This document shows, piece after piece, positions 9,039 through 63,672 of a stretch of DNA of 64,000 nucleotides; the stretch's first letter is position 1; every line of letters begins with the position of its first letter. The notes beneath the pieces are model-generated. The model saw nothing but the letters and a program-made list of their open reading frames with translations, made no database searches and was not told where the DNA came from. Source of the DNA: Cardiobacteriaceae bacterium (GTDB lineage: Bacteria; Pseudomonadota; Gammaproteobacteria; Cardiobacteriales; Cardiobacteriaceae). A program made the position numbers and the translations under genes. Location: assembly GCA_030529365.1 (NCBI GenBank), contig JAUMXB010000005.1, positions 1 to 64,000 of the forward strand, given 5' to 3'.

Positions 9039-9124
9039 AAATAATCGATTTTTACCATCAATAAGCGCTTATTGTGGGAAAATTTCTCGCAATAAGCGCT
9101 TTATAATGAGAAAATTTTTCATTA
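9039..9124. repeat. AAGCGCTT intergenic repeat, copy 3 (two-core)
   Basis: Cores at 9063-9070 and 9094-9101 (31 bp apart), with GGGAAAATTTCTC between them and GAGAAAATTTTTC at the right end. Lies just upstream of the small gene at 8765-9016. Confidence 0.9.
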
Positions 9125-11655: not shown

Positions 11656-11734
11656 ATTTTTACACCATCAAAAAGCGCTTATCGTGAGAAAATTTCTCAA
11701 AACAAGCGCTTTACCATGAGAAAATTTCCCATCA
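11656..11734. repeat. AAGCGCTT intergenic repeat, copy 4 (two-core)
   Basis: Cores at 11673-11680 and 11704-11711, 31 bp apart, with GAGAAAATTTCTC between. The stop codon of speA (11732-11734) lies at the right edge of the element. Confidence 0.9.
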
Positions 11735-14455: not shown

Positions 14456-14536
14456 GGTAAATTTTCTCACCAACAAGCGCTTATCGTGAGAAAATTTATC
14501 ATAACAAGCGCTTCTTAATGAGAAAAAACTACTATT
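14456..14536. repeat. AAGCGCTT intergenic repeat, copy 5 (two-core)
   Basis: Cores at 14475-14482 and 14506-14513, 31 bp apart. The left arm reads ATTTTCTCACCAAC and the inner palindrome GAGAAAATTTATC. It lies just past the yfaE stop codon. Confidence 0.88.
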
Positions 14537-18421: not shown

Positions 18422-18511
18422 TATGAGAAAATTTCTCACCAACAAGCGCTTGTAGTAAGATTTTTTCTCGTAACAAGCGCTTCATGATGATAAAAAATGA
18501 CTATTTTAGTG
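18422..18511. repeat. AAGCGCTT intergenic repeat, copy 6 (two-core)
   Basis: Cores at 18444-18451 and 18475-18482, 31 bp apart. The right end reads TGATAAAAAATGACTATTTT. The thiE stop codon (TAG on the minus strand, 18501-18503) is the TAG of the element end. Confidence 0.9.
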
Positions 18512-19229: not shown

Positions 19230-20009
19230 CAGCCCGTTTTCCCAGCTCAGCCCATCCATCAGCCGCGCCGCAAATTCGCCCATGCCCCGCGCGCAAGATG
19301 CCTGATCGCCCGCTTTTTTCATCACCGCACAGGCGGCGGCGCTGGCCGCGAGCACGTCGCCATCGGCAACAGCAGGCGCAACAAAGGCGGCAACGAGGGC
19401 AGACAGCGTACAGCCGCAGGCAGTGAGCCGCGTTTGCCGCACATCGCCGCCGGTGGTGTAGAACGTGTCCGTGCCATTGGTAATGAAATCGCGTTCGCCG
19501 GTTACCACGACCACGCCATCCTGCGCCTTGGCGAGCGCCTGCGCGGCAGGGAGCGCTTCCTCGCTGCCGCTTAAACTGTCCGCACCGCGCTGCGCGCTTT
19601 TTTCCCCGGCCAAAAAGAGGATTTCCGCCGCGTTGCCGCGAATGACCGCGGGGCGATACGTCATCAGTTCACGCGCAAAATCCGTGCGATAGGCAAGCAC
19701 ATTGCCCACCGCGACCGGATCGAGAACCCACGGCTTGCCATGCGCTTGCGCCGTCTGCGCCGCCTTGCGCATCGCAGCGAGACGACCATCATGCAAGGTG
19801 CCGACATTGATCAGCAAATTGGCGGCAAGCGCGGTAAAGCGCGGCACTTCCTGCTCGGCCTCGACCATCGCGGGCGAGGCGCCGGCAGCCAGCAGGGCAT
19901 TGGCGCTGAAATGGATGGCGAGCGGATTGGTGAGCACGTGAATAAGCGGCGTGCGCGCAACAAGCACTTGCCAGTGCGGGATGGCGTCTGCAAAAGAGAA
20001 AGGGTTCAT
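19227..20009 (-). CDS. thiM: Hydroxyethylthiazole kinase
   Basis: Phosphorylates hydroxyethylthiazole for salvage into thiamine. It has 260 residues with the ribokinase-like fold blocks PLIHVLTNPLAIHFSANALLAAGASPAM, WVLDPVAVGN, VIRGNAAEILFLAG and the C-terminal LTACGCTLSALVAAF, where the catalytic Cys of this family occurs. The start codon overlaps the rimI stop (ATGA). With thiE but without thiD or a thiamine riboswitch here, this looks like a salvage branch. Confidence 0.93.
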   Translation of the reverse strand: MNPFSFADAIPHWQVLVARTPLIHVLTNPLAIHFSANALLAAGASPAMVEAEQEVPRFTALAANLLINVGTLHDGRLAAMRKAAQTAQAHGKPWVLDPVAVGNVLAYRTDFARELMTYRPAVIRGNAAEILFLAGEKSAQRGADSLSGSEEALPAAQALAKAQDGVVVVTGERDFITNGTDTFYTTGGDVRQTRLTACGCTLSALVAAFVAPAVADGDVLAASAAACAVMKKAGDQASCARGMGEFAARLMDGLSWENGL

Positions 20010-20407
20010 GGCATTTCCTTGCGAAAAATCAGGGCATCTTCATCGCCGTAATAGGCTTTGCGCGTGGCGATGGGCGCGTAGCCGCAGGCGCGATAAAGCG
20101 CTTGTGCTGCCTCATTGCCAGCGCGCACTTCCAGAAAAAAGGTTTTGGCTTGCGGCAATTGCGCTTCGCCCGCGGCGACAAGCGAAGCGGCGATGCCTTT
20201 GCGGCGGGCGTTGGGACTGACAGCAATGCCAAGCAAGGTCGCTTCATCGAGCACGCTTTGCCAGGCAGCAAAGCCCTGCAAGGCATCGCCCTGCCAGGCG
20301 GTGAGCAGCAAGTCTTCACTGCCATTGGGCACATAGACCCGCGAAGCATGCGCAAGCGCCTGCACAGCATCAAGATTTTCTTTCAAAAAAGAACGTATTA
20401 TCATCAT
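20006..20407 (-). CDS. rimI: GNAT N-acetyltransferase, RimI type
   Basis: Probable ribosomal protein S18 alanine N-acetyltransferase. GNAT motif A is LLGIAVSPNARRKGIAASLV, and the RimI-type C-terminal block is EVRAGNEAAQALYRACGY, followed by ARKAYYGDEDAL-like residues. It has 133 residues, slightly short. The ATG sits inside repeat copy 7, so the repeat supplies the start codon and leader; no Shine-Dalgarno sequence is visible. It overlaps thiM by 4 nt. Another GNAT acceptor specificity cannot be excluded. Confidence 0.75.
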   Translation of the reverse strand: MMIIRSFLKENLDAVQALAHASRVYVPNGSEDLLLTAWQGDALQGFAAWQSVLDEATLLGIAVSPNARRKGIAASLVAAGEAQLPQAKTFFLEVRAGNEAAQALYRACGYAPIATRKAYYGDEDALIFRKEMP

Positions 20408-20454
20408 TTTTTACCGCAACAAGCGCTTCATGATGGTAAAAACATACTATAAAT
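20398..20454. repeat. AAGCGCTT intergenic repeat, copy 7 (single-core)
   Basis: One core at 20421-20428 flanked by ATTTTTTACCG and GATGGTAAAAAC. The rimI start codon (20405-20407) lies inside the left arm. The stretch from 20455 to 20653 contains no recognisable gene. Confidence 0.85.
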
Positions 20455-20653: not shown

Positions 20654-21469
20654 TCAGAGCAGACGGCGGCGGAAGTAGGTAATGACGATTTCGGCGATGA
20701 TGACGACAACGAATATGGTCAGCAGGATAACGGCAACGCGATCCCACTCGAAAAGGTCGATCGCCGAATTCATGATCATGCCGATACCGCCGGCGCCGAC
20801 CAGCCCGAGCACCGAGGATTCGCGCACGTTGATGTCCCAGCGCAGCAGCATGATCGACCAGAAGGCGGGTTTTACGGCAGGCCAGTAGCCGTAAAGGATT
20901 TGGCTGCTCTGGGTTGCGCCCGCCGCTTTCAGGGCTTCGATAGGGCCGCGTGGCACTTCTTCCAGCGCTTCGCCGAGCAATTTGCCGATGAAGCCGACCG
21001 AGCGGCAGGCAATGGCGATGGTGCCGGCCAGTGCGCCGGGGCCGAAAACGGCAATGAAGAGCAGCGCCCAGACGAGCGAGTTGACGGAACGGCTGGCGAC
21101 AAGCAGCGTCTTCGCGAAGAAATTGAGCGCGCGGTTGGGCGTCAGGTTGTGCGCGGCCAGTATGGACAGCGGCAAGGCGGCAATCAGGGCAAAGAGGGTT
21201 CCCAATGTAGCGATGTGGAAGGTTTCCATCAGCGCTTCGTGCACCGCAGCAGGATAGTAGGCGTAATCGGGCGGGAACATGCGCTGCACCATGTCGAGCA
21301 TCTGCTGTGGTGCATCCCAGAGGAATTCCCAGATGACGTTGATGTTTTGCAGCGACAGCAGCACGGCAATGCCGATGCCCAGCCAGAATGCAGTGCGCGC
21401 AAGTTTTTCGGCCAGCGTATGGCGCTGCCAGAGGCGCTCGGAAAGCGCGGTGTTGTTGGCGTCAGACAT
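20654..21469 (-). CDS. phnE: Phosphonate ABC transporter permease, second PhnE
   Basis: Integral membrane permease of about 271 residues with six or so hydrophobic helices and the inner-membrane coupling (EAA-like) loop around EALEEVPRGPIEALKAAGAT. It ends GIGMIMNSAIDLFEWDRVAVI, typical of PhnE. The start at 21469 (MSDANN) overlaps the stop of the first phnE by 8 nt. It is paired with the preceding paralogue, so the channel is probably a heterodimer. Confidence 0.9.
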   Translation of the reverse strand: MSDANNTALSERLWQRHTLAEKLARTAFWLGIGIAVLLSLQNINVIWEFLWDAPQQMLDMVQRMFPPDYAYYPAAVHEALMETFHIATLGTLFALIAALPLSILAAHNLTPNRALNFFAKTLLVASRSVNSLVWALLFIAVFGPGALAGTIAIACRSVGFIGKLLGEALEEVPRGPIEALKAAGATQSSQILYGYWPAVKPAFWSIMLLRWDINVRESSVLGLVGAGGIGMIMNSAIDLFEWDRVAVILLTIFVVVIIAEIVITYFRRRLL

Positions 21470-22274
21470 TGAAGATCCGTTTGACCGCGTTGGCAGCCAG
21501 TTCACCGAGGAGGACGACGGCAATGATGGTGATCAGAATGGCGAGGACGAAATCGTATTCAAAGCGCTGGAAGGCAGCGAACAGCGTGCCACCGATACCG
21601 CCGGCGCCGACGATGCCAACCATGGTGGAATTGCGCAGGTTCGCATCGAGCTGGTAGGTGCAAAAGCCGACGAGACGCGCCATCACCTGCGGCAGCACGC
21701 CGTAGATGACGACAGAAGCGAAAGGTGCGCCAGTGGCGCGCACGGCTTCGATTTGTTTCATCGAAATTTCTTCGATGGTTTCCATGAACAGCTTGCCGAC
21801 AAAGCCAATCGAAGCAACGACCAGCGCAAGAATACCAGCCAGCGGACCGAAACCGACCGCCTTGATGAAGATGATGGCAACGATGACCGGGTTGAAGGCA
21901 CGGCAGAAAGTCACAACGAAACGTGCCGGCCAGGTTGCCCAGGCGGGCATCAGGTTGCGCGCACCGAGAATGGCGATAGGCAGGGAAAGCAGCACACCGA
22001 AAAAAGTCGCCAATACCGCGATTTGCAGGCTTTCGATCAGGCCGGTGAGCAACTGCGACCAGTCCTTGAAATTGGGCGGGAACATGCGCCCGAGAAAGCG
22101 CGCGCCATTATCAAGCCCCTTGATGAAGCGTTCGGCAGAAAAATCGAGCTGCCCGAGTGCGTAAACGGCATAAGCGACAAGTGCCAGCGCCAGCAGCCGT
22201 GCCCCCCAGGAGGCACGGAAGGGGCGGACAGCAGCAGATGACGGAACAATCGCCGGATGGGATGGAGCGTTCAT
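21462..22274 (-). CDS. phnE: Phosphonate ABC transporter permease, first PhnE
   Basis: Membrane permease of 270 residues, homologous to the next gene. The coupling loop is [19 protein letters not shown] and the C-terminal segment [24 protein letters not shown]. Its start overlaps the phnC stop by 4 nt. With phnD, phnC and the second permease it forms a complete importer for phosphonate, phosphite or a related anion. Confidence 0.9.
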
Positions 22275-23029
22275 TGCAGCCAGTCCTTGCCGCCATAAAT
22301 CATGTTCAGAACCTCATCGCTCAACGCAGCGGGCACGTCATCAAACACAACCTTGCCGCCATTCATGCCGACAATACGGTCGGCGTAGCGACGCGCGAGA
22401 CCAACATCGTGAATGTTGACCAGTACGGGAATCTGCTGATCAATACCCTGCGATTTGAGCAGCTCCATGATTTCCACAGAAGTCTTCGGGTCAAGTGAGG
22501 AAGTCGGTTCATCAGCGAGCAGAATCTCCGGCCGCTGCATCAGCGCACGGGCAATACCAACGCGCTGCCGCTGCCCGCCGGAGAGGCTGTCGGCACGCTG
22601 GTTGGCAAAATCGGCGAGACCGACAATCTCAAGCAGGTGGTAGGCATAAGCGATGTCCTCGGCAGGAAAGCGGCGCAACCAGGCGTTCATCGGCGACACA
22701 TAGCCCAAACGCCCGGTCAGCAGGTTTTCCATGACGGTCAGGCGTTCGACGAGGTTGTATTCCTGGAACACCATGCCGATGCGCCGTCGCGCTTCGCGCA
22801 GTGCGCGCCCTTTGATATGGGAAAGCTCTTCTCCCTTGAACAGGATGGAGCCATCGCTAGGGTCAATCAGGCGGTTGATGATGCGGATGAGCGTGGATTT
22901 ACCTGTCCCGGAGGGGCCGATAATCGCCGTCAATCCGCTGCCTTCAAAACACAAATCAATGCCTTTGAGCACCGGCTTCCCGGCCTTGTATGCCTTGGTC
23001 AGGCCGCTAATTTGCAGAACAGCATTCAT
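22271..23029 (-). CDS. phnC: Phosphonate ABC transporter ATP-binding protein
   Basis: ATPase of the importer. It has Walker [11 protein letters not shown]-loop [13 protein letters not shown], signature [15 protein letters not shown], Walker [14 protein letters not shown] and the H-loop region [11 protein letters not shown]. It has 252 residues. The ATG at 23029 has AGGTAGAGG just upstream; the longer frame adds 11 residues without support. It lies between phnD and phnE. Confidence 0.93.
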
Positions 23030-23064
23030 GCCTCTACCTGCTTTTTCAGTATCTGTCGTCAAGC

Positions 23065-24075
23065 TTATTTCTTCTTGGCGCTTTCCGCCTCATAGCCGCT
23101 GCGGTTCAGGCTTTGCCCGGCAGCAATGGCGACTTTGCGCACCAGTTCCCAGTCTTTCTCATAATTGGCAGGCAGGAAGCGGTCGCCGCCCAGGCCTTTC
23201 GCCATTTCCGGCGGAATGCGGTACTCGAAGAAACACTGTTTGATTTTTTCCACCAGCTTCGGATCCAAATCGTGCGCATGCGCATAGGAGTCGGTCGGGA
23301 ACATGTCGCTGGTATAGAGAACCCTGAAATCATCGGCATCAACCACGCCGCGTTCCGTCATATGCTGCAATACGTCGCTGGCGACGGGAGCAGCATCGTA
23401 GTCGCCTGACTTGACGCCCAGAATCGATTGATCATGTTTGCCGGAAAACACTACCTTGTAATCCGTGTCGGGAATCAGTCCCTGCTCGGGGAAAAGCGCG
23501 CGGGGCGCCAGGTTGCCGCTGTTCGAAGAAGGTGAGGTGTGCGCGATATTTTTGCCTTTCAGATCGGAAAGTTGCTGGTAGGGGCTGTCTTTGCGCACGA
23601 TCATCTTGATGGCGACACCTTCCGGCCCGTTTTCCGTACCGCGAATGGCGAAAGGCACGGCACCGGCGATATTGACCGCAAAGTTGGTCGGCCCGGTCGA
23701 GAACGCGGCGATGTGCAGGCGCCCGGAACGCATCGCTTCGATTTCCGCCGAGTTCGACTGCACGGCGAAGAATACCGTCTTGCGCCCCACGCATTGCGAC
23801 AAGTGCCCCATGAACGGCTGGAAGAGTTTTTCATAGATTGTCGGATCTTCTACTGGCGTGAAGGCAAAGATCAGCGTTTTCGGATCGCGGAATTTTTTCG
23901 GGTCCGTCGGCGGGTCGGCAACCATGTCTTTATCGGCATCGCAATAAATCGCATCGAGATCGCCACGGTGCGGACAGGTATCGTCCGCCATTGCCGCGCC
24001 GGCGAAAGCCAACCCTGCGGCGATCAGGCTGAAACGGAAAACCGGCATAACATACTGTTTGGCATGAGCTTGCAT
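23065..24075 (-). CDS. phnD: Phosphate/phosphite/phosphonate ABC transporter substrate-binding protein
   Basis: Periplasmic binding protein, about 336 residues. It has a Sec signal peptide ([16 protein letters not shown], cleavage before DD). The family block includes [39 protein letters not shown] and [16 protein letters not shown], the last resembling the anion-binding loop of PhnD. I chose the ATG at 24075, where GGAG is six nt away. It is first in the phnD-phnC-phnE-phnE operon. No C-P lyase, phosphonatase or phosphite dehydrogenase gene is in the window, so the substrate is not settled. Confidence 0.9.
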
Positions 24076-24520
24076 CATTTTCTCCAGTCTTGTTTTTAGA
24101 ACAATCAAACCTTCGGATTAACCGGTGCATACCAGCAACTGGCGATACGCGATGAACGGTCAACAGAGAAAGAGCGGCGAGTTTGTGAAGCGAGGCCTCC
24201 TCATAATATCGGCTCCTGAGAGGAGCGGGGCAACCGCCTGAAAAACAATCGGTATCGGTAAAACCGCGAGCATACGACGGGGCATACATTAACATAATCT
24301 AACAATGCATACACGCTACTGCCCCAGGTAATCGGTAATTGCAGAAATACATTGGCAATTCACACTCCCGGCAATGATCATCGAAAGCAAGGCCCTTCCC
24401 TTCTGCTCCGATAGAATCTTCCAAAGCGCTTGCCATGACGCTTTGCCGCATGAACCCGGGTTCCCGCGTCAAAACAATTTGCGCGGGTGCCCGGGGTTAC
24501 GCCTATCCTGCTTTTTGTGC
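24076..24520. other. Non-coding region upstream of phnD
   Basis: No gene is supported. A GC-rich hairpin (GCTCCT, GAG, AGGAGC) lies at about 24211-24225 in the phnD leader. I looked for a Pho box or a known riboswitch and did not recognise either. Below it, 24300-24480 is ordinary spacer before the convergent-side end of the esterase gene. Confidence 0.4.
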
Positions 24521-25327
24521 TCAGCCTGCTACGCCATCATAACAATCATCATGGAAAACGACCTGCTCGCGGGCATGTGAATGCACGAAGAAGAAGCTGT
24601 GGTCATAGCGCTTGCGGGTGTTCAGCGTGCAGGAGACGGGTTGCGTACCGAGCACGCGCTGCACCGCTTCATACTGGATTTGCTGGCCGAGCAGCGGATC
24701 GGCATCGCCCTGGTCCAGCCACAACGGAATGCCCAGGGTTTTTTCGCCGGATTCCAGCGCCACCAGGGGATCGATGTCAGCGGAAATGCCCAGCGCCTCG
24801 CAATGCTCGCGAAACCACACGGAGCCGTAAAAGCCGAGCCACGGCGCAAAGAGCGACACGCCGCGGTAAAGATTGGGATAGCGCAACGCCAGATCGAGCG
24901 CCACGGTGCCGCCGAAGCCGTAGCCCATCAGCCCCCAGGCATCGAAGATGCGGAAGCGGTGCTCGAGCACGTGCGGCAGGCTTTCCGTGAGGTAGTGAAG
25001 AATGCTGTCCCTTTCCGACTGGTATTGCTGGAGTTTTTCGCCGACGCTGCCTTGCAGGTGGGAAAAGATGTCGGGCACGACGAGGATGATGTCGTAACGG
25101 TTGGCATAGCACTGGTAATCGCTCTGGTTGGCCATATCGCGCGCCGTGCAGCCCAGTTCCGGCAAATAGAAGAGCACCGGGCAGTGCCGCCCTTTCAGCA
25201 ACGACGCCACGGGCACATAAATGGCGAGTTCCACGTCGCGCCCCAACGGCTCGGCCATGTCGCGATAAAAGCGCTGTTCGCCCTTGTAGCTGACGTGGGC
25301 TTCCAGAAGTTCGATGTGATGGTCCAT
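24521..25327 (-). CDS. S-formylglutathione hydrolase-like protein lacking the nucleophilic serine
   Basis: An alpha/beta-hydrolase of 268 residues with the layout of S-formylglutathione hydrolase (esterase D family): CPVLFYLPELGCTARDM near the N-terminus, the nucleophile elbow, DQGDADPLL (acid) and RYDHSFFFVHSH (His243). At the elbow, where the family has Gly-His-Ser-Met-Gly, this protein reads GYGFGG, and the codon at the Ser position (residue 137) is GGC for glycine. The acid and histidine remain. The protein is therefore probably not a serine hydrolase, or uses another residue. It is monocistronic; no formaldehyde dehydrogenase gene is nearby. The family assignment is good, the function unknown. 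Confidence 0.78.
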   Translation of the reverse strand: MDHHIELLEAHVSYKGEQRFYRDMAEPLGRDVELAIYVPVASLLKGRHCPVLFYLPELGCTARDMANQSDYQCYANRYDIILVVPDIFSHLQGSVGEKLQQYQSERDSILHYLTESLPHVLEHRFRIFDAWGLMGYGFGGTVALDLALRYPNLYRGVSLFAPWLGFYGSVWFREHCEALGISADIDPLVALESGEKTLGIPLWLDQGDADPLLGQQIQYEAVQRVLGTQPVSCTLNTRKRYDHSFFFVHSHAREQVVFHDDCYDGVAG

Positions 25328-25354: not shown

Positions 25355-25444
25355 GATATGAGAAATTTTCTCATATATAAGCGCTTATGGTGAGAAAATT
25401 TATCAAGATAAGCGCTTATTGATGGTAAAAAATGATTATTTTTG
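25355..25444. repeat. AAGCGCTT intergenic repeat, copy 8 (two-core)
   Basis: Cores at 25379-25386 and 25410-25417, 31 bp apart. Left GAGAAATTTTCTC, inner GAGAAAATTTATC, right TGGTAAAAAATGATTATTTT. It lies just upstream of the esterase gene and beyond the end of metG. Confidence 0.9.
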
Positions 25445-25506
25445 GTTATTTTTTAAAATCCCTCTGCGAGATGGCCGACAAACCGAATGGTGGGCTGAAT
25501 TCCACC

Positions 25507-25727: not shown

Positions 25728-27749
25728 TCAGCTGATTTTCATGCCCGGTTTGACGGCATCGCCCGGCGCAAGGAGCTGCAAACCGTCTTCGCCGCTCGCC
25801 GACAGAATCATGCCGGTAGAGGTGCCGAAGCGCATTTTGCGCGGCGCGAGGTTGGCGACATAGACCACCATGCGGCCAACCAGATCTTCCGGCTGATACC
25901 AGGCCTTGATGCCCGAGAAAACTTCACGCTCGCCCAGTTCGCCGACATCGAGCCTGAAGGCGAGGAGTTTGTCCGAGCCGTCGATGTGGCTGCATGCCAG
26001 CACTTTGGCGATGCGCAAGTCGAGTTTGGCGAAGTCGTCAATGCCGATCCAGTTATCGGTTTCCACGGGGTTTTTCTCCTTTTTGCCCAGTTGGGCTTCT
26101 TCCTGCAGATCTTCCTTGCTGTCGGCCAGCACGGCGGCAATCTGCCCTTCTTCAACGCGCTGCATCATCGGCTTGAAGGCGGCAATGGTGTGGCCAAGCA
26201 AAGGAGCTTGTGCATCCGCCCAGGCGAGCGGCGCGATATCGAGAAACTGCTCCGCATCCAGCGCCACTTGCGGCAACACGGGCTTCAAATACACGATGAG
26301 CTGGCGGAAGGCATTCAAGCCAACGGTGGCGATGCCCTGCACTGCGGCGCGCGTCGCTTCGTCTTTCACTTTCACCCACGGCTTTTCCGCATCGATGTAT
26401 TCGTTGGCCATGTCGGCGAGTTTCATGATGTCGCGCAGGGCATGGCCGTATTCGCGTTTTTCGTAATAACCGGCAATGTCTTCGGATTTTTCGGCAAAGG
26501 CGTTGAACAGCGTGCGATCCATGTCGGCAGCGAGTTTGCCGCCAAAGTGTTTGGCAAGGAAAGGCGCACAGCGGCTCGCGAGGTTGACGAGTTTGCCGAC
26601 GAGATCGCTGTTCACTTTCTGGCGGAAGTCTTCGAGATTGAGATCGATGTCTTCCACGCGCGCGGAGAGTTTGCTCGCGAAGTAATAGCGCAGGTATTCC
26701 GGGCGCAGATGTTTGAGGTAGGTGGCAGCCTTGATGAAAGTGCCGCGCGATTTGCTCATTTTTTCGCCATTGACGGTCAAAAAGCCGTGGCAGAACACGC
26801 CGGTCGGCTTGCGGTAACCCGCGCCTTCGAGCATGGCCGGCCAGAACAGCATGTGGAAATAGGCGATGTCCTTGCCGATGAAGTGATAAAGCTCGGTTGG
26901 GCTGCCTTCGCCCCAGAAGTCGTTGAATGCCAGCCCCTTGCGGTCGCAGAGCGCCTGGAAGGCAGCCATGTAGCCGACTGGCGCATCCACCCACACGTAG
27001 AAATACTTGTCTGCCGCACCCGGGATTTCAAAGCCCCAATAGGGGGCATCGCGGGAAATATCCCACGGCTGCAAACCCGCTTCGAACCATTCGCCGAGCT
27101 TGTTGCGCATGGATTCCTGGATGTCGGCAGTGGCAAGCCAGCCTTGCAGGAAACCGGCAAAAGCGGGCAGATCGAAGAAGAAATGCTCGGATTCGCGCAG
27201 CACGGGCGTGGCGCCGGAGAGCGCGGAATAGGGTTGCAACAGATCAGTAGGCGCATAGGTGGTGCCGCACACTTCGCAGTTGTCGCCATACTGGTCTTTG
27301 GCCTGGCATTTCGGGCAAGTGCCCTTCACAAAGCGGTCAGGCAGGAAGATGTTCTTTTCGGGATCGAAAAGCTGCGAGATGGTTTTGCGCAGGATGTGGC
27401 GCTTGCCGTCGAGCGCCTGGAAGATTTCGCCGGTGTAGTGGCGGTTTTCTTCGCTGTGGGTGCTGTGATACTGGTGATGATCGACGAGAAAGCCCTGAAA
27501 ATCGCGCATGTGCGCTTCACGCATGCGGTCAATGAGCGTTTGCGGCGTGATGCCTTCTTTCTCGGCGCGCAGCATGATGGGCGTGCCGTGGGCATCGTCG
27601 GCGCAGATGTAATGGCATTCGTGACCGCGCATGCGCTGGAAGCGCACCCAGATATCCGTTTGAATGTATTCGACCAAATGCCCGAGATGGATGTCGCCGT
27701 TGGCATAGGGCAAGGCGCTGGTGACGAGGATTCGCCGTATGTCCGTCAT
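25728..27749 (-). CDS. metG: Methionyl-tRNA synthetase
   Basis: Class I synthetase for initiator and elongator tRNA-Met, 673 residues. It has the HIGH-type motif NGDIHLGH, the zinc knuckle [18 protein letters not shown], the KMSKS loop [10 protein letters not shown] and a C-terminal tRNA-binding EMAP-like domain ([21 protein letters not shown]). The ATG at 27749 ([18 protein letters not shown]) matches family starts and has AGGA upstream. It is monocistronic; a MITE-like element abuts the 3' end. Confidence 0.96.
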
Positions 27750-27818
27750 GATGAGTCCTGAAAAATCGCAAAGCGCGCATTCTAGCAAAACCCCGCCCCA
27801 AGCGCTGGAATGCCGTTT

Positions 27819-36884: not shown

Positions 36885-36970
36885 AAAATAGTCGTTTTTT
36901 ACCATTATGAAGCGCTTGTTGCGAGAAAATTTATCACAACAAGCGCTTATTTGTGAGAAAATTTCTCATC
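36885..36970. repeat. AAGCGCTT intergenic repeat, copy 13 (two-core)
   Basis: Cores at 36910-36917 and 36941-36948, 31 bp apart, with GAGAAAATTTATC between and GAGAAAATTTCTC at the right. One of the few copies between divergent genes (kef and hrpA), so it cannot simply be a terminator here. Confidence 0.9.
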
Positions 36971-50152: not shown

Positions 50153-50241
50153 TCAAAAATAGTTGTTTTTTACCATCACAAAGCGCTTATCATGCAAAAA
50201 TTTCTCATCGAAAGCGCTTCACATTGGTAAAAAATGACTAT
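50153..50241. repeat. AAGCGCTT intergenic repeat, copy 17 (two-core)
   Basis: Cores at 50181-50188 and 50212-50219, 31 bp apart, with both outer ends (AAAATAGTTGTTTTTTACCA and TTGGTAAAAAATGACTAT), so the element is complete and nearly symmetric. The kdsB stop TAG (50238-50240) is the TAG of the right end. Confidence 0.92.
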
Positions 50242-56041: not shown

Positions 56042-56131
56042 CAAAAAATAGTCTTTTTTTACCACCATGAAGCGCTTATCGTGAGAAATATTCTCGCAGC
56101 AAGCGCTTATATATGAGAAAATTTCTCACTT
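56042..56131. repeat. AAGCGCTT intergenic repeat, copy 18 (two-core)
   Basis: Cores at 56070-56077 and 56101-56108, 31 bp apart; inner GAGAAATATTCTC, right GAGAAAATTTCTC. It lies between convergent zapD and folP, and the folP stop codon begins at its right edge. Confidence 0.9.
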
Positions 56132-63583: not shown

Positions 63584-63672
63584 CAAAAAATATTGATTTT
63601 TTACCACTATAAAGCGCTTATTGTGAGAAAATTTTTCATGTAAAGCGCTTAATGGTGAGAAAATTTCCCATT
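63584..63672. repeat. AAGCGCTT intergenic repeat, copy 20 (two-core)
   Basis: Cores at 63612-63619 and 63643-63650, 31 bp apart; left TTTTTTACCACTA, inner GAGAAAATTTTTC, right GAGAAAATTTCCC. It lies between sucB and lpdA. The rest of the 290-bp gap holds a GGTGGGTTGACACCCACTCT hairpin and the sucB terminator. Confidence 0.9.

Follow-up and report, generated by a model that had tools for sequence, protein, structure and literature searches.

What is a protein that aligns throughout with S-formylglutathione hydrolase (FGH) when a glycine occupies the place of the catalytic serine? The question is raised by a gene at 24521..25327, on the minus strand of the window (the whole stretch of 64,000 nucleotides of Cardiobacteriaceae DNA that was analyzed), whose product, P0001, we refer to as the Gly-elbow FGH-like protein. 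A first-pass annotation had placed the ORF at exactly this position, without giving its strand, and had described an intact frame of 268 codons; translation of the window bears out both, with the ORF running from ATG to TGA, encoding 268 aa, and containing no internal stop. The nucleophile elbow, residues 135-140, reads GYGFGG as annotated, and codon 137 (24917..24919, minus strand, as are all codons given here) is GGC, a Gly codon where FGH has its catalytic Ser. The acid and the histidine, which the annotation regarded as retained, are Asp210 (24698..24700), the last D of DQGDAD, and His243 (24599..24601), within YDHS.

The assignment of Gly137 to the position of the catalytic Ser, also claimed in that annotation, was checked with three alignments, which all agree with it. 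In a phmmer alignment to the Shewanella FGH 6jzl, Gly137 falls on Ser148, Asp210 on Asp224, and His243 on His257, the three residues that make up the catalytic triad of that enzyme (PMC6699074). A profile-profile comparison against ten canonical FGHs gave the same register (E 1.9e-48), and Gly137 also falls on the catalytic Ser in a MAFFT alignment with 34 Ser-type FGHs. Nor is there a displaced serine at the elbow, the finding that would have undone the claim: a G-x-S-x-G motif was sought across the whole length of all seven family members described below and was found in none. The GHSMGG elbow with its catalytic Ser that is expected of an FGH is thus replaced by GYGFGG in the window protein, while the catalytic Asp and His are invariant in all seven members.

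Database models place the protein in the same fold family at some distance from FGH itself. The Pfam Esterase model PF00756 (alpha/beta hydrolase) matched with an E value of 1.3e-17 and 64.9 bits, above its gathering cut-off of 22, and the FGH equivalog TIGR02821 scored 121.8 bits against a cut-off of 281.7. The AlphaFold model of the window protein has a mean pLDDT of 64 and a pTM of 0.70, with the His-bearing C-terminus below 50, and a second run with the Cardiobacterium hominis protein placed first was worse (mean pLDDT 56). The top 23 Foldseek matches to the modest first model are all FGH/esterase D-type structures, with E values down to 8e-12 and TM scores of 0.5-0.6, and the predicted fold of the window protein is of the FGH-type alpha/beta-hydrolase kind.

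Searches for relatives recovered the gene in seven of twelve Cardiobacteriaceae genomes, the window's own included, spread over four genera. The other six members are 47-80% identical to the window protein. The elbow motif is G-[YF]-G-F-G throughout the seven, and differences at the Gly codon are synonymous only, with GGC in six members and GGG in one. The orthologue comparison proposed in the first-pass annotation therefore excludes a point mutation peculiar to this strain: since all seven members in four genera share the replacement, we are dealing with an established family. The window's own genome (2.30 Mb in 32 contigs) holds a single copy and no further match at E <= 0.001. A pattern scan with two peptides of the clade across 84,980 species genomes matched in Cardiobacteriaceae only, with carriers including C. 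hominis NCTC10426, C. valvarum NCTC13294, Rappaport israeli, and two Cardiobacteriaceae MAGs. Nor did a profile search of 369 Gammaproteobacteria turn up members beyond this family (own score 465 bits, next 162 bits), with the proviso that very divergent members could escape both searches. The Ser is kept in each of 30 outside FGHs examined at the elbow. A phage origin was also considered and rejected, as two scans of viral contigs yielded no relative.

In a tree with the 34 Ser-type FGHs, a branch with 100/100 support sets the seven Gly members apart, and a very long stem joins them to the Ser-type proteins. The closest pair, the window and its sister species, gives a dN/dS of 0.156, and purifying selection acts on the gene. 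One carrier, G010, encodes both the Gly type and a separate Ser-type FGH, and because a single genome holds both, the Gly type is a paralogue and not a replaced FGH. The history within the family is less straightforward: the window's genus goes with Cardiobacterium in the metG tree (99/99) but with Rappaport and G010 in the tree of the Gly-elbow gene, a conflict for which gene transfer or long-branch error could account. G010 is also the only one of the seven carriers with frmA above cut-off, beside its separate Ser-type FGH (locus L024, G010:C1:437906-439844); in the search of twelve Cardiobacteriaceae genomes, no other true frmA-frmB pair was found. The Gly-elbow gene thus lacks the linkage to frmA that is expected of an FGH gene, and glutathione-dependent formaldehyde oxidation seems to be absent from the other genomes searched. 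Formaldehyde detoxification was accordingly rejected as its role, as six of the seven genomes have no frmA above cut-off.

To describe how the clade departs from FGH, we used the 81 positions with conservation of 94% or more among Ser-type FGHs. In the Gly clade 26 of these are kept, 37 vary, six are deleted, and twelve have switched to another invariant residue: Ser to Pro56, Lys to Gln68, Gly to Asp70, Pro to Tyr102, Ser to Gly137, Met to Phe138, His to Thr141, Ile to Trp163, Pro to Phe166, Leu to Trp203, Leu to Ile217, and Phe to His251. Those kept include Asp210, His243, the preceding Tyr241-Asp242, the gatekeeper Trp171, and the elbow glycines 135 and 139. The active-site loop of FGH, TSPRG..., is disrupted by deletion of S-P-R, and the GAGFY stretch is unconserved. 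In FGH, Lys65 and His147 make the substrate site positively charged (PMC6699074). Here Lys65 corresponds to Gln68 in all seven members and His147 to Tyr or Phe136, and the oxyanion Met149 corresponds to Phe138. Twelve switches to other invariant residues point to a new role rather than decay, and the switched residues may line the old pocket.

The reading to which we give somewhat better than even confidence, on the strength of these sequence comparisons, is that the Gly-elbow protein is a pseudo-esterase repurposed for binding, an FGH paralogue that would have arisen once and become fixed in part of the Cardiobacteriaceae. The first-pass suggestion of a binding or regulatory protein is the likeliest of those considered. 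As expected of a pseudoenzyme, no member of this conserved family, which is under selection, has the nucleophile, and a Gly in place of Ser throughout the members found closes off the acyl-enzyme route of FGH. The loop and residues surrounding the glutathione-thioester site have likewise been lost or replaced. The alpha/beta-hydrolase fold would persist around a pocket re-lined by Gln68, Asp70, Phe138, Thr141, Trp163, Phe166, Trp203, and His251, in which a small molecule or a peptide or protein partner might be bound reversibly and without hydrolysis. The protein would probably be cytosolic, together with the products of the co-directional genes for methionyl-tRNA synthetase and a RimI-like acetyltransferase.

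What speaks against a protein that only binds is that Asp210, His243, and the gatekeeper Trp171 are invariant despite deep divergence, which is more than binding alone would seem to require. A tentative alternative, clearly less probable than a binding protein, is an active enzyme that is no longer a serine enzyme, in which the His243-Asp210 pair would act as a general base in a new reaction that uses no nucleophile. Such an enzyme could conceivably activate water, or abstract a proton as a lyase, decarboxylase, or isomerase does; the elbow Gly might make room for the substrate, and the clade-specific Asp70 could perhaps take part. The Asp, the His, and the Tyr-Asp of YDH preceding it are the same in all seven members, against 37 other canonical positions that vary; Trp171 is kept, as are elbow glycines 135 and 139, and the new invariant set is coherent and includes Asp70, adjoining the former substrate Lys. 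However, about 27% of positions are invariant within the clade, which makes the invariance of Asp and His weak evidence, and the two may be structural. Related non-catalytic alpha/beta hydrolases can, moreover, retain part of the triad.

The neighborhood of the gene bears on a further possibility, one we consider rather improbable from the gene order and sequences at hand: that the protein scaffolds or regulates either the RimI-like acetyltransferase or methionyl-tRNA synthetase. The upstream neighbor in six of the seven carriers is metG (25728..27788, minus strand, in the window), with a small ORF between the two in one of them (G010), and the RimI-like GNAT acetyltransferase gene lies at 20006..20407, also on the minus strand; its product scored 73.6 bits against the RimI model, just below the cut-off of 86.4. 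The order metG, Gly-elbow gene, GNAT on one strand recurs in five genomes of three genera (G004, G007, G009, G011, and, with its extra ORF, G010). Junctions between the Gly-elbow and GNAT genes are tight or overlapping, the stop codon of the former overlapping the start of the latter in G011, and related elements lie upstream of both genes in the window. Against this, metG adjoins GNAT with no Gly-elbow gene in four genomes (G002, G005, G006, and G008); this adjacency predates or survives without the gene, which either entered a pair that already existed or has been lost from one, and may simply sit inside it. In the sister species (G001), metG is on a different contig and does not adjoin the gene; GNAT lies some 4 kb from the gene in this species and in the window's own, the two species of the genus. 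Only in these two is it split from the Gly-elbow gene by a phosphonate-type ABC transporter cassette (20654..24108, minus strand, in the window), comprising a phnD-like gene, a phnC ATPase gene, and two ORFs that gene order and sequence suggest are permease-like. The PhnD-like protein scored 153 bits, below the PhnD equivalog cut-off of 261, which leaves the substrate of the cassette uncertain. The genes around the Gly-elbow gene may be its neighbors by position only. An Rfam search of 20-28 kb of the window gave no match.

An ordinary FGH that has recently lost its Ser, or a decaying pseudogene, is what the one missing catalytic residue suggests at first sight, and it is very unlikely: the orthologues reject it, with members in four genera, open frames everywhere, purifying selection, and a long separate branch, in line with the first-pass view that the gene is not decaying. 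The substitute nucleophile offered in that annotation, Cys60 (25148..25150), can hardly be credited, as the Cys-Thr said to be conserved there is present as Cys60-Thr61 in the window protein and the Cys is found in no other member, the position reading C, S, D, A, T, T, T across the seven, which refutes it as a family-wide mechanism. The sole cysteine common to all members, Cys49, is predicted to lie at the start of strand E51-54 and not at the elbow.

Among known systems, FGH/esterase D proteins (FrmB, FghA; TIGR02821; 6jzl, 3i6y, 3e4d, 4b6g) share full-length homology with the Gly-elbow protein at roughly 24-32% identity, along with the predicted fold, the positions of the acid and His, and the gatekeeper Trp. 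Unlike them, the Gly-elbow proteins have Gly for Ser, a deleted TSPRG loop, no substrate Lys or His, and no Cys, the window protein scores well short of the equivalog cut-off, and there is no adjoining frmA. In neuroligins and other cholinesterase-like adhesion proteins the nucleophilic Ser has likewise been lost and the alpha/beta-hydrolase fold is used for binding; unlike the present family, these are eukaryotic cell-surface proteins of the carboxylesterase family and are not relatives at this level. MPT51, which is related to antigen 85, is a secreted protein of another lineage that lost catalysis independently. As cited in PMC6119806, it is similarly an esterase-type alpha/beta hydrolase that persists after the loss of catalysis, and its relative antigen 85 was also matched by the model of the window protein in Foldseek. 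A literature search found no paper on the Gly-elbow family. We would therefore describe it as a real, lineage-restricted family of putative FGH-derived pseudo-esterases, the product of a known kind of event and itself undescribed in the literature found. It is an apparently clean bacterial example, with one origin and a closed clade; G010 would hold an active and a retired paralogue side by side, the switched residues provide a testable set, and the family can be tested through its orthologues in cultured species, C. hominis among them. Neither "S-formylglutathione hydrolase" nor "esterase" would be a correct annotation for these genes.

Just upstream of the Gly-elbow gene (25366..25458, no strand assigned) is a copy of a repeat that carries two AAGCGCTT boxes 31 bp apart. 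The box occurs 40 times in the window, against a mean of 2.6 and a maximum of 6 in shuffled sequences, and ten pairs are spaced by exactly 31 bp (736-774, 9063-9101, 11673-11711, 14475-14513, 18444-18482, 25379-25417, 36910-36948, 50181-50219, 56070-56108, and 63612-63650). In the elements, two alternating palindromes, ATAAGCGCTTAT and TGAGAAAATTTCTCA, are accompanied by a TTTTTTACCA arm that recurs, and the elements inspected are intergenic and upstream of genes. The arrangement AAGCGCTT-N23-AAGCGCTT is found 391 times in the window's genome, 362 times in the sister species, and 5 times in G003, with none in the nine other Cardiobacteriaceae and none for a reversed-pattern control. Judged by this pattern, the elements are a candidate genus-specific, genome-wide operator or repeat family, and merit a study of their own. 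Two of them share a 33-bp sequence (20410-20442 and 25399-25431) at 79% identity, one copy upstream of the GNAT gene and the other upstream of the Gly-elbow gene, which suggests either common regulation or a repeat-mediated rearrangement around the phn cassette.
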